Shown piece by piece: positions 14,437 through 19,603 of a stretch of 49,967 nucleotides of DNA; positions within the stretch are counted from its first letter, which is position 1; every line of letters starts with the position of its first letter. The position numbers and the translations under genes are program-made. The notes below the pieces were generated by a model. The model did no database searches and was not told the DNA's origin. It was given only the letters and a program-made list of their open reading frames with translations. This DNA comes from Bacteroidota bacterium (GTDB lineage Bacteria > Bacteroidota > Bacteroidia > NS11-12g > UBA955): the NCBI GenBank assembly GCA_947496065.1, contig CANMBF010000020.1, forward strand, positions 1 to 49,967. The letters are read 5' to 3'.

Positions 14437-15579
14437 TTATGTTGTTTTAAATGTGATAATAAATTTTGCGCCTTTAGGTAAATTGTTTTCGACAGAAATT
14501 TTTGCATCGTGCACCAGCAGAATTTGTTTAACTAAGAAAAGGCCTAATCCAGTGCCCTTTGTTTGGCGGGTGTTTTCATCGCCTATTCTGTAGAACTTCG
14601 AAAATATTTTTGATTTTTCCTTATCAGAAACGCCAGGGCCATCATCGGATATGGTGACAATTAATTTCTTCTTTTCGTTGGTAAATCCAATATTCAGTGC
14701 TGTGTTTTCGCCAGCATACTTAATGGCATTTTGAAACAAGTTGCTAAATACCAAATTTAAGGACACATGGTCGCCTTTGATCAAATGCTCTTCATTGGGT
14801 AAATTGAAGGTACCGTTAAAATAGGGTGGATTCAAAATTTGTTCAGCAGCATGATCAATAACAGAGACAATATCGATGGTTTCAAAATTATAGCGATAAC
14901 TTTTGCCATCAATTTTAGTGGCCAACAGAACATTGTCTATGAGGTCGTTTAAACGATCGGCATTTAGAATGGTTTGATTGATAACTTGGGGTTGAATGGA
15001 TTCATTTAATTTTCTCTGCGAGAGCGTTTGTGCACTTAATTTAATAGCGGCCAATGGTGTTTTTAATTCATGGGTTACCGATAATAAGAAATTGTTCTGC
15101 ATACGGTTCAGATTCAGCAGCGATTCTAAACGAGAGAAAACCCACAGTACACCAAGTATTACCGCCAATGTAAACACAATAGCTTCCGAGTAAAAAGCTC
15201 TTAATTTTGTTTCATAGCGCTTGTCTATTTTAATAAATTCTCTGCGGTTGGGTGCAATGGTTAGCAGGTCGCTAAAATTATTTTTACCAGCATTAATGGT
15301 CAAATCAACTTCACATTTTTGCTCTTTTTTAAGTCTATTTAATACCTGCGTGAATTCTTTTTTGTTGGCTTCAAAGGTCATGAAATAACCAATCTCTGAA
15401 TTTTCTTTTGTATATAAAAAATTAACAAGGGCTTCTTTTATGTGAGCTGATTTATATTGCAGAGAATTAATTTCATAGGCATGTTCTTTTTTTGTAAAAT
15501 CAATTAATGAATATAACCACCAGCCAAAGGCAGCTAGTATATAAAGAATCACCATGACAAGAAATAATCGTATTTTCAA
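14437..15579 (-). CDS. Membrane sensor histidine kinase
   Basis: A 380-residue kinase paired with the regulator that follows. Two membrane helices (about 5-27 and 132-150) enclose a periplasmic sensor of about 105 residues with no recognised fold. The dimerisation domain carries SVTHELKTPLAAIK with an intact His. The ATPase domain has the N box NLFQNAIKYAG, the G1 box DDGPGVSDKEK and the G2 box GTGLGLFLVKQI. All catalytic elements are present, in contrast with the second kinase of this window at 18123. The signal sensed is unknown; proximity to the haem locus makes haem or envelope state possible. Confidence 0.93.
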   Translation of the reverse strand: MKIRLFLVMVILYILAAFGWWLYSLIDFTKKEHAYEINSLQYKSAHIKEALVNFLYTKENSEIGYFMTFEANKKEFTQVLNRLKKEQKCEVDLTINAGKNNFSDLLTIAPNRREFIKIDKRYETKLRAFYSEAIVFTLAVILGVLWVFSRLESLLNLNRMQNNFLLSVTHELKTPLAAIKLSAQTLSQRKLNESIQPQVINQTILNADRLNDLIDNVLLATKIDGKSYRYNFETIDIVSVIDHAAEQILNPPYFNGTFNLPNEEHLIKGDHVSLNLVFSNLFQNAIKYAGENTALNIGFTNEKKKLIVTISDDGPGVSDKEKSKIFSKFYRIGDENTRQTKGTGLGLFLVKQILLVHDAKISVENNLPKGAKFIITFKTT

Positions 15580-17974: not shown

Positions 17975-18136
17975 TTAATCTTCAGAAAGGCCATGTTTTA
18001 TTGCATAGTTGGACGCGGTTTTTAGTATTCAACTACTGCATTTATTTTCCCGCGATAGCAATGCTTTTTGACAGAGGTTTCTTTTGAGCAGCATTGATAG
18101 AGGATGGTCGGCAATGCCAATATCAATAATTTTCAT
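17975..18136 (-). pseudogene. Eroded NarL/LuxR-family response regulator
   Basis: A 54-codon remnant in a single frame. It opens with ATG and MKIIDIGIADHPLSMLLK, the standard start of a NarL-type receiver apart from one missing Asp of the usual ADDHPL. After 35 codons there is a TGA (18029-18031). The same frame then resumes as ILKTASNYAIKHGLSED and stops, which is the usual C-terminus of a LuxR-type helix-turn-helix domain. A full regulator has about 210 residues, so roughly three quarters, including phospho-acceptor and DNA-recognition helix, are gone. Its ATG overlaps the kinase stop by 14 bases, the normal coupling of such pairs. Not functional as a regulator. Confidence 0.7.
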
Positions 18137-18926
18137 TTTCAAAATCTTTTATGAGCGTTGCACGTGTGCCATTGCCTCCACTCGTAAATGTAATACTACA
18201 ATTAATATACTTTGCTTTATTTTCTAAAGCCTGGAGTCCACTACCATCTTTAAATTGTCGATTTTTTAATATTTTTGTTTTATCAAAACCTTTGCCATCA
18301 TCTTTCACTGAAATGGTGACTTTTTCGGCAATGTATGCAAGCTTAATATAAATATTTTCACATTCACTGTGTTTAATGGCATTGTTCATTAATTCTTGAA
18401 CCATTCTAAACAAAACCAGCTCGATACGCGGATTAAAATGCTTTTGATGACCTTCAATTTTTAAGTCGATTTTGATAAAACCAATTCTATTAATACGCTC
18501 AGCTTGGTAGTTAATAGAATTCCATAATCCGAAATTTGCTATGTCTTGAGGTGATATACTTTGAGAAATATGTCTGACTTGCTCCTTAATATCCATTACC
18601 AAAGCTTTGGTGTCTTCAATATGTCTTTGCAGATCAGGCTGTCCTCTGTCGCCCAATACTTTAATGTGTAGAATTGCCGAGCTTAAAAGTTGACTAACAT
18701 GGTCTTGTAATTCATCGGATACCTCTCTTAAGGTTTGGGCTTGCACTTCGATTTGTGAATTAAGAATAGCGCTGTCGTATTCATGTTTTATTTTAATTAA
18801 ACTTTCGCCATATTTAAAACTGCGTTTCTGCGTGATGTACAAAAATATGACTACCAATGTGATTAATAAAACAGCAAACAAAGCACTTGCCAATACCAGA
18901 TAAATATTATTTAATTCAGTCGGCAT
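18123..18926 (-). CDS. Degenerate NarL-type sensor histidine kinase lacking the phospho-acceptor His
   Basis: A 267-residue protein with one membrane helix (about 8-31), a coiled segment, a dimerisation region and an ATPase domain. Related Bacteroidota kinases read ...SxEIHDNxGQxLS; this protein reads REVSDELQDHVSQLLS, so the His is Gln (about residue 74, codon CAA) and a different His occurs two residues later. The ATPase domain looks intact: VQELMNNAIKHS (N box), KDDGKGFD (G1) and GSGLQALENKAKYI (G2). Its response-regulator partner just downstream is reduced to a fragment. The kinase is therefore probably decaying or retained for another use. No promoter is evident. Confidence 0.8.
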   Translation of the reverse strand: MPTELNNIYLVLASALFAVLLITLVVIFLYITQKRSFKYGESLIKIKHEYDSAILNSQIEVQAQTLREVSDELQDHVSQLLSSAILHIKVLGDRGQPDLQRHIEDTKALVMDIKEQVRHISQSISPQDIANFGLWNSINYQAERINRIGFIKIDLKIEGHQKHFNPRIELVLFRMVQELMNNAIKHSECENIYIKLAYIAEKVTISVKDDGKGFDKTKILKNRQFKDGSGLQALENKAKYINCSITFTSGGNGTRATLIKDFENENY

Positions 18927-18950
18927 TAAAAGGATCGTTTAAATAAAAAA

Positions 18951-19049
18951 ATGGTGGATGAATTAACAAATGAGTTAAAAACACTAAGCGTTGAAATTGC
19001 AATTAAAATGATTAAAAAGGTCATGTTTACGCCTAATCAAAAATATTAG
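18951..19049 (+). CDS. Possible 32-residue helical micro-protein
   Basis: A short ATG-initiated frame in the gene-poor region, predicted to encode a Lys/Glu-rich amphipathic helix (VDELTNELKTLSVEIAIKMI and a short tail). Nothing in it is recognised and no promoter element is apparent. Composition is compatible with a real peptide or the stub of a lost gene. Chance occurrence in A/T-rich DNA is equally plausible. Confidence 0.2.
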   Translation: MVDELTNELKTLSVEIAIKMIKKVMFTPNQKY

Positions 19050-19240
19050 ATTGATAATCTATAATTGGAACAAGGTACAATGCATTCAGATTGATTTAAA
19101 AAGGCATCAATAACAACTTCTCCCCAAAAATGGGATTTCACTTCGCTAGGGCTATTATTTCTGCAATGGGTGGTCCATTGAATGGCTTGCGACAGTGAAA
19201 TTGTTCTCCGAGTGTTTGCTGATATATTTGGGTTTGGCAT
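19046..19240 (-). pseudogene. Truncated fragment of a Bacteroidota-specific hypothetical family
   Basis: Sixty-four codons from the ATG at 19240. The stretch TISLSQAIQWTTHCRNNSPS, then KSHFWGEVVIDAFLNQSECI, resembles from memory the N-terminal half of small cytoplasmic Bacteroidota proteins (pattern ISLxxAxxWTxxxRxxxP ... GxxxIDxxLxQxGC). Those continue with a strand of the type GIRxYYA, but here the frame degenerates into PCSNYRLSI and stops. I see no continuation in the other frames. It lies next to other decayed sequence, supporting a remnant, but the family match is by eye. Confidence 0.35.
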
Positions 19241-19343
19241 ATATTTAGTTATTATATTCCTCAAAAATAAGAATATTAAAAGTGTCTTCCATTTATTTTT
19301 TGGTCATTAAGTATCTTGTTAATATTTTTAAAATCAGGGAAAT

Positions 19344-19501
19344 GCAAAAAGTGTCCACTTTTGCGTACGTGGCATGGCGTAAATTTTTGCCTGATTCTAC
19401 CCTTTTTTAAATGAAAAAAGTAGCCTTCCTTTGTATTGCTGTATGTTGGACTTTGAGAAGGCGGGCCCATTTGAAAACACGGGCCATCTTTTCGCCTTCT
19501 C
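19344..19501. other. Three consecutive hairpins in a gene-poor region; possible structured RNA or repeat element
   Basis: Three inverted repeats lie within 158 bases. (1) GCAAAAAGTG 19344-19353 with CACTTTTGC 19356-19364 (one bulged A). (2) CTAC and a T-run 19397-19408 with an A-run and GTAG 19414-19423 (two-base bulge). (3) A long GC-rich stem: GAGAAGGCG 19455-19463 plus GGCCC 19464-19468, pairing with GGGCC 19481-19485 and CGCCTTCTC 19493-19501, with a 7-base bulge. The local GC is above its surroundings. Open frames across it on both strands look non-coding. Candidates are a small structured RNA or a MITE/REP-like element. The rest of 18927-19629 holds only the two weak frames listed separately. 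Confidence 0.45.
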
Positions 19502-19603
19502 GGTCTAGCCCTTTTGGGTATTTTGAATTGAAAGCAATAAAATCGCAAACGAACCTCAAATGAATGGAAGTTTTTGTTTACACAAGCTTTCTATAGAATG
19601 TAC

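Follow-up and report, generated by a model that had tools for sequence, protein, structure and literature searches.

The question raised by this locus is whether a sensor kinase frame that has lost its phospho-acceptor histidine is the trace of a recent death or a protein retained for another job. The window, i.e., the whole stretch of 49,967 nucleotides analyzed here from a Bacteroidota genome, had been read in a preliminary description as carrying a decaying pair of kinase and regulator. The decay is supported, but its extent had been put too small, because deletions and substitutions have hit not only the regulator but also two genes upstream of the kinase (A and B) and an inverted repeat in front of them; the decay is operon-wide. 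Our preferred explanation, held with a confidence slightly above even, is a stepwise loss of a four-gene operon, of which the kinase would be the last, kinase-dead remnant, its own loss being recent.

Remains of a four-gene operon

Among 17 genomes of the same genus (own included), the kinase was found at E 1e-40 or better in four, namely, the window's, G006 (85%), G004 (71%), and G014 (65%), and the four loci have the flanks ftsZ and fabG in common. The operon order in these relatives is A-B-kinase-regulator, where gene A encodes 106 aa and gene B, which overlaps the kinase start by 16 bases, encodes a membrane protein of 210–228 aa. The orthologous operon is present in 3 of the 16 other same-genus genomes, and from this count the operon at the ftsZ-fabG locus is apparently dispensable; some of the absences may be gaps, because 7 of the 17 genomes are outside the class of ≥90% completeness and ≤5% contamination. 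The search of public named genomes for orthologues gave one record only, that of G006, and records near the window's genome may be omitted there. In the window (Table 1), a net 1147 bases are missing between the start of gene A and the end of the regulator, and the kinase is the sole operon component without an indel or a stop. By pseudogene criteria, the regulator and gene B are disabled, gene A is relaxed, and the kinase frame is uninterrupted, with neutrality over its whole branch rejected.

Table 1. Positions of the operon components, upstream elements, and module loci
Feature	Position	Strand	Basis
NarL-type response regulator remnant: first 11 codons, 72 bases not securely placeable, last ~20 codons with an 8-base deletion	17975..18136	(-)	frame reading and alignment to relatives
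Kinase frame, DesK/NarX-type sensor, 267 aa, no internal stop	18123..18926	(-)	motifs, Pfam, and orthologue alignment
Kinase codon 74: Gln; His in 3/3 orthologues	18705..18707	(-)	aligned with DesK His, PDB profile alignment
Gene B tail, last 59 bases; remainder deleted	18911..18969	(-)	alignment to relatives
Gene A remnant: 54 aligned codons with many changes and a short tail, net -42 codons, 64-aa frame uninterrupted	19046..19240	(-)	alignment to relatives
Promoter-like element before gene A: TATTTTTG (19269-19262) kept; TTGA of G006 reads TGGA at 19291-19288	19262..19291	(-)	alignment
12-bp inverted repeat upstream of gene A	19368..19401	(-)	comparison of four sequences
Module loci with genes A and B	L002:523-1516; L058, L061, L062, L063, L065, L068		

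The second frame, from 18136, reads MKIIDIGIADHPLSMLLKRNLCQKALLSRENKCSS, a stop, ILKTASNYAIKHGLSED, and another stop; it begins with MKIIDIGIADHPLSM, continues for 20 codons to the stop, and closes with ASNYAIKHGLSED. It overlaps the kinase by 14 bases, and the same overlap is found in G006, G004, and G014. All three of these loci carry an uninterrupted 214-aa regulator at the matching position (Response_reg and GerE are over cut-off in that of G006, the only copy scanned), and both ends of the remnant, 18136-18103 and 18031-17975, align with it; the previous reading of this frame as the two ends of a NarL-type regulator is thus borne out, and its rejection for want of similarity to such regulators did not come about. 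The missing part, put beforehand at about 150 codons, was counted as 161: the window has 162 bases vs. 645 in the G006 regulator, and 483 bases have gone, the frame having been broken at least twice, by a large deletion that follows codon 11 and by an 8-base deletion close to the end. With its frame interrupted, the remnant falls outside the NarL-type regulators as defined by a receiver domain with Asp and GerE.

An assembly or sequencing error could have made such lesions in a draft genome of 79 contigs, where single-base errors are possible in one assembly. This explanation was already disfavored and is most improbable, because three genes have lost stretches of between a hundred-odd and several hundred bases, with gene order and flanks undisturbed, because dozens of substitutions occur at normal divergence, and because the kinase differs from that of G006 at ~20% of its bases without an indel.

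The inverted repeat, positioned ~130–160 bases before gene A, is perfect in G006, G004, and G014 (12/12 pairs each, 36/36 cells) with compensatory differences, and 6 of its 12 pairs are broken in the window. Both-sided changes occur at three pairs over the four sequences; with this number of sequences the covariation is weak, its score being equaled in 5 of 500 shuffles. The repeat may act as an operator or form an RNA hairpin. By the Bacteroidota promoter consensus, the promoter-like element in Table 1 would be a putative promoter.

Separately, the block 19385-19575 (minus-strand sense) has a distribution in the genus that coincides with that of the operon (4/17 genomes). It folds as a strong hairpin around GAGAAGGC/GCCTTCTC (z -3.4, 1 of 200 shuffles as good), with both-sided changes at two pairs and an unfavorable covariation term for the whole alignment (+2.75). 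Rfam gave nothing at gathering scores on the window and one chance-level match (19.4 bits vs. a gathering score of 60) on the upstream conserved block. Kept despite the decay of the operon behind it, the block is a possible candidate for an unannotated RNA.

The same module recurs in the genus. It is complete at G002:C3, G009, G012, and G011 (gene B of G011 being identified from its location and length); in G013 and G015 it is spread across two contigs, and in G003 a contig end truncates it. Gene A, which encodes a small protein with CP..C at its end, was traced further by a profile, with matches in 34 of the 108 genomes of the order (window remnant included). Searched with the G006 copies of genes A and B, Pfam gave no family over its cut-off, and NCBIfam gave no model at E 0.01.

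Several copies of the module are broken or divergent. At L059 (G002:C26), gene A (G002:C26:37336-37626) contains stops, 2 TAA or 4 TAA in two readings, and gene B, the kinase (with His), and the regulator are uninterrupted despite it; therefore, gene A can be lost first. In the second such operon of G004 (L068, G004:C106, 2017-2208), the kinase frame runs for 49 codons to a stop that lies 42 bases from the end of the contig; this is either a broken kinase or a contig-end error. At L067 (G011:C16, 1993-3364), the kinase H-box is LHDYLAV vs. LHDxxGQ/P, and the downstream regulator looks divergent.

The kinase frame and its acceptor position

Residues 72-81 of the kinase, ELQDHVSQLL, lie at the expected dimerization motif, where the kinases of G006, G004, and G014 have ELHDN[VI]GQ (3/3), so that the reported Gln for His stands. 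The ancestral state predicted from the window, i.e., the acceptor His together with an intact regulator of roughly 210 codons, was found at 3/3 orthologous loci with their ftsZ/fabG flanks, and the possibility that relatives have the same Gln found no case (0/3). A profile made from the four kinases (window and orthologues) aligns the orthologue His with the DesK His. His is at the acceptor position in 11 of the 11 readable kinases of A-B-kinase-regulator operons in the genus (three orthologues included), which were gathered by gene A or kinase similarity without selection on the acceptor residue; left out of this count are the G004:C106 kinase, whose frame ends after 49 codons and before the motif, and a piece on G013:C131 that ends before the motif, its remainder on G013:C56 (recognized by sequence overlap) being counted. 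When 26 other kinases of the same kind were compared, H74 alone was invariant among the window-changed positions checked (residues 51-267), and G78, which is Ser in the window, was conserved in 23; the value of 26/26 for His is partly built in, because these kinases were picked by a motif of which one alternative demands His or Gln at the acceptor and the other demands His.

The ATPase domain is intact, as had been stated: HATPase_c scores 43.9 bits, over the Pfam cut-off, and the ATP-binding N, G1, and G2 boxes are present (E178, N182, D209, G211, G213, G228, and G230 retained). HisKA_3 scores 14.2 bits, under its cut-off of 24, whereas the three orthologues reach 29.4, 32.2, and 34.6 bits; having Gln74 at the phospho-acceptor position, the window frame departs in this trait from the HisKA_3 (DesK/NarX-type) histidine kinases. 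Lacking the phospho-acceptor, it would by known chemistry undergo no autophosphorylation and no phosphate transfer, and would be catalytically dead as a kinase. In DivL, the position of the His is taken by Tyr. Structure prediction for the window kinase (with one relative) and the G006 gene A product gave mean pLDDT of 38.5 and 41.5 and no usable model.

Such a frame may have been retained as a pseudokinase, i.e., as a His-less protein kept as a phosphatase or as a heterodimer partner on another NarL-type pair, and we regard this as a serious possibility with a chance somewhat below even. The frame has 0 stops and 0 indels in 267 codons at ~20% of bases different from G006, and it stands between three heavily deleted genes; the DxxxQ phosphatase motif (D75, Q79) is retained along with the N and G boxes. 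The window genome assembly (96.6% complete) has one other HisKA_3 kinase (C1:26002) and, adjoining it, one other two-domain regulator (C1:26657), and the retained motifs together with this pair make a kinase-dead phosphatase or dimer partner acting on it mechanistically possible. On the other side, the cognate regulator is gone, the next best match to it elsewhere in the window genome being 29% identical. The more specific proposal, that the kinase outlived its regulator, its sensor partners, and the operator-like repeat, and that selection keeps its ATPase domain and DxxxQ motif so that it can restrain the one remaining NarL-type pair of the genome, by phosphatase action or by heterodimer formation, we regard as rather unlikely.

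Rates of change on the window branch

For the rate analysis, G004 and G014 served as outgroups, and the window branch was compared with the G006 branch. Nonsynonymous and synonymous changes in the kinase number 34 and 45 on the window branch, compared with 12 and 47 on that of G006 (p 0.006); in six control genes (fabG, tatC, ftsZ, ftsA, ftsQ, and the kinase 14437-15579) they number 82 and 274 vs. 46 and 283 (p 0.002), which suggests that the window lineage may be under generally weaker selection. The excess of the kinase over the controls was not significant (z 1.03, p 0.30), nor was that of its dimerization half (z 1.34, p 0.18), where the counts are 17 nonsynonymous to 14 synonymous on the window branch vs. 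8 to 27 on the G006 branch; the window-to-G006 ratio of residue changes is 25:6 in the kinase vs. 51:19 in the controls (p 0.46). Because these tests were not significant, we do not claim a kinase-specific relaxation. The raised ratio in the dimerization half, G78S included, speaks against the retained pseudokinase, as does the lack of a significant excess over the control genes.

The dN/dS comparison that the preliminary description had proposed for the kinase frame gave a rejection, by the codon model, of neutrality over the whole window branch (2dlnL 18.55), with which a recent death remains compatible. On the same branch, the gene A remnant has 20 nonsynonymous to 10 synonymous changes. 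In a two-phase model, the neutral share of the window branch was 0.18 (about 0.07–0.4) for the gene A remnant and 0.002, its lower bound, in common for the kinase; by part, it was ~0.06 for membrane plus dimerization and at most ~0.02 for the ATPase domain, all these fractions depending on the fitted window branch length, with ranges taken from a coarse profile, synonymous sites near saturation for the outgroups, and the G014 branch at its bound. The regulator remnants are too short for dating. A model of branch-specific omega separates gene A from the kinase (2dlnL 10.84) and, within the kinase, the ATPase domain from the other parts (2dlnL 7.88), and no window-branch omega, for the kinase or any of its partitions, is above 1. 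Purifying selection acted on the kinase for longer than on gene A. When neutral drift was simulated, the chance of no stop in the kinase frame was 0.43 at a neutral fraction f of 0.02, 0.10 at 0.05, and 0.02 at 0.1, and the low values at the two larger fractions, which apply if constraint was lost as early as in gene A, favor the retained pseudokinase. From the rates and the intact frame together, the kinase did not lose its constraint at the same time as gene A; the constraint was lost later and recently, or not at all.

The window-specific residue changes are unevenly spread over the kinase, at 8/44 eligible sites in the membrane part, 13/74 in the dimerization part, and 4/90 in the ATPase part. 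The ATPase domain appears free of detectable drift, and would have been neutral for at most ~2% of the branch. The comparison of 4/90 with 21/118 for the rest gives p 0.0043 by Fisher's test and p 0.03 by permutation with a free boundary, the latter being the value to be set against the former because the domain split was fixed after the data had been seen. The G004 and G014 lineages have no such bias between parts (p 0.25 to 1.0); on the G006 branch, 5 of 6 polarized changes lie before residue 150 (5/102 vs. 1/87 eligible sites, p 0.22), which are too few. The neighboring kinase 14437-15579 has no bias either, with window-specific changes at 4/176 sites before and 6/94 in the ATPase part. This spread and the constraint on the ATPase domain are suggestive of a functional pseudokinase.

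A kinase half repurposed by adaptive membrane and dimerization changes for a new partner, with the loss of His selected, is another reading; in its favor, 21 of the 25 polarized window-specific residues are within residues 1-150 and the relaxation multiplier is ~2 for this half vs. 0.56 for the ATPase domain, the boundary at residue 150 having been chosen after the positions of the changes were seen. We regard this as very unlikely, since none of the omega values exceeds 1 and since, besides H74 and G78, the changed positions checked (51-267) vary in other kinases, as under drift.

We favor the stepwise loss with a recently dead kinase, at little more than an even chance, over the retained pseudokinase. 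The starting point would be a module of small protein A, membrane protein B, a DesK-type kinase, and a NarL-type regulator, in which the input side (A and B) would have failed first; this failure would next have relaxed the membrane and dimerization half of the kinase, the regulator and His74 would have been lost later, and the kinase would have lost its function recently, in roughly the last 1–2% of the branch. The kinase frame would then be uninterrupted because its loss of function is recent and not because of another job. Stepwise loss is supported by the intact syntenic operons at 3/3 orthologous loci, by the neutral fraction of gene A (0.18) vs. that of the kinase (0.002), by the breaking of other copies (gene A of G002:C26 and the kinase of G004:C106), by the general relaxation of the window lineage, beyond which the kinase does not go significantly, and by the dispensability of the operon. 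Two observations count against a fresh death: the regulator has at least two deletions and the 801-base kinase none, and changes are sparser in the ATPase domain than expected if evenly distributed, with f of at most ~0.02 there, where a freshly dead kinase should drift evenly.

Known systems and meaning of the locus

The operons of the relatives resemble DesK/DesR and NarX/NarL in having the HisKA_3 H-box, HATPase_c, DxxxQ, and a NarL-type regulator, and the profile of the four kinases finds DesK structures and likewise VraS structures; the best NCBIfam matches are MctS and UhpB, all under their cut-offs. Unlike those systems, the window has Gln for the His and a deleted regulator, and the kinase is short, at 267 aa, and in relatives preceded by genes A and B. 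A literature search on NarX H399Q with phosphatase found no paper, and a narrow query on kinase pseudogenes in Bacteroidetes found none.

For the retained pseudokinase, several precedents can be referred to. The DesK residue that matches Q79, a Gln located one helical turn beyond the His, positions the catalytic water for dephosphorylation (PMC5231405). An inactivated kinase of Corynebacterium glutamicum, ChrS_CA-fs, still affects signaling via a paralogous pair, and heterodimers of the native forms have been reported in that study (PMC9491836). In that variant, a product of laboratory evolution, it is the ATPase domain that has been knocked out, by a frameshift, and the effect does not involve the His; the window kinase, by contrast, has lost its His and retained its ATPase domain. 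DivL and RocA are histidine-kinase-like proteins without kinase activity, the former sensing the phosphorylation state of a regulator (PMC4211667) and the latter interacting with CovS (PMC7028121); their roles are demonstrated, whereas any role of the window kinase is putative.

Losses of two-component systems are usually visible as absences only. With the intact ancestor to hand in a sister species and the operon components datable relative to one another on one branch, the order of loss becomes testable here, and it likewise becomes possible to test whether a histidine kinase that is dead as a kinase is a passing relic or a new functional protein. The locus also exposes a recurrent A-B-kinase-regulator module; for genes A and B, as judged from the G006 copies, there is no Pfam match over the cut-off and no NCBIfam match. 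If the kinase has indeed outlived its regulator in a brake role, a natural transition from kinase to pseudokinase would have been caught between an intact sister species and the derived state. Pseudogenes of two-component systems are commonplace; what is uncommon here is that the order of loss can be partly resolved and that the ATPase domain shows constraint.
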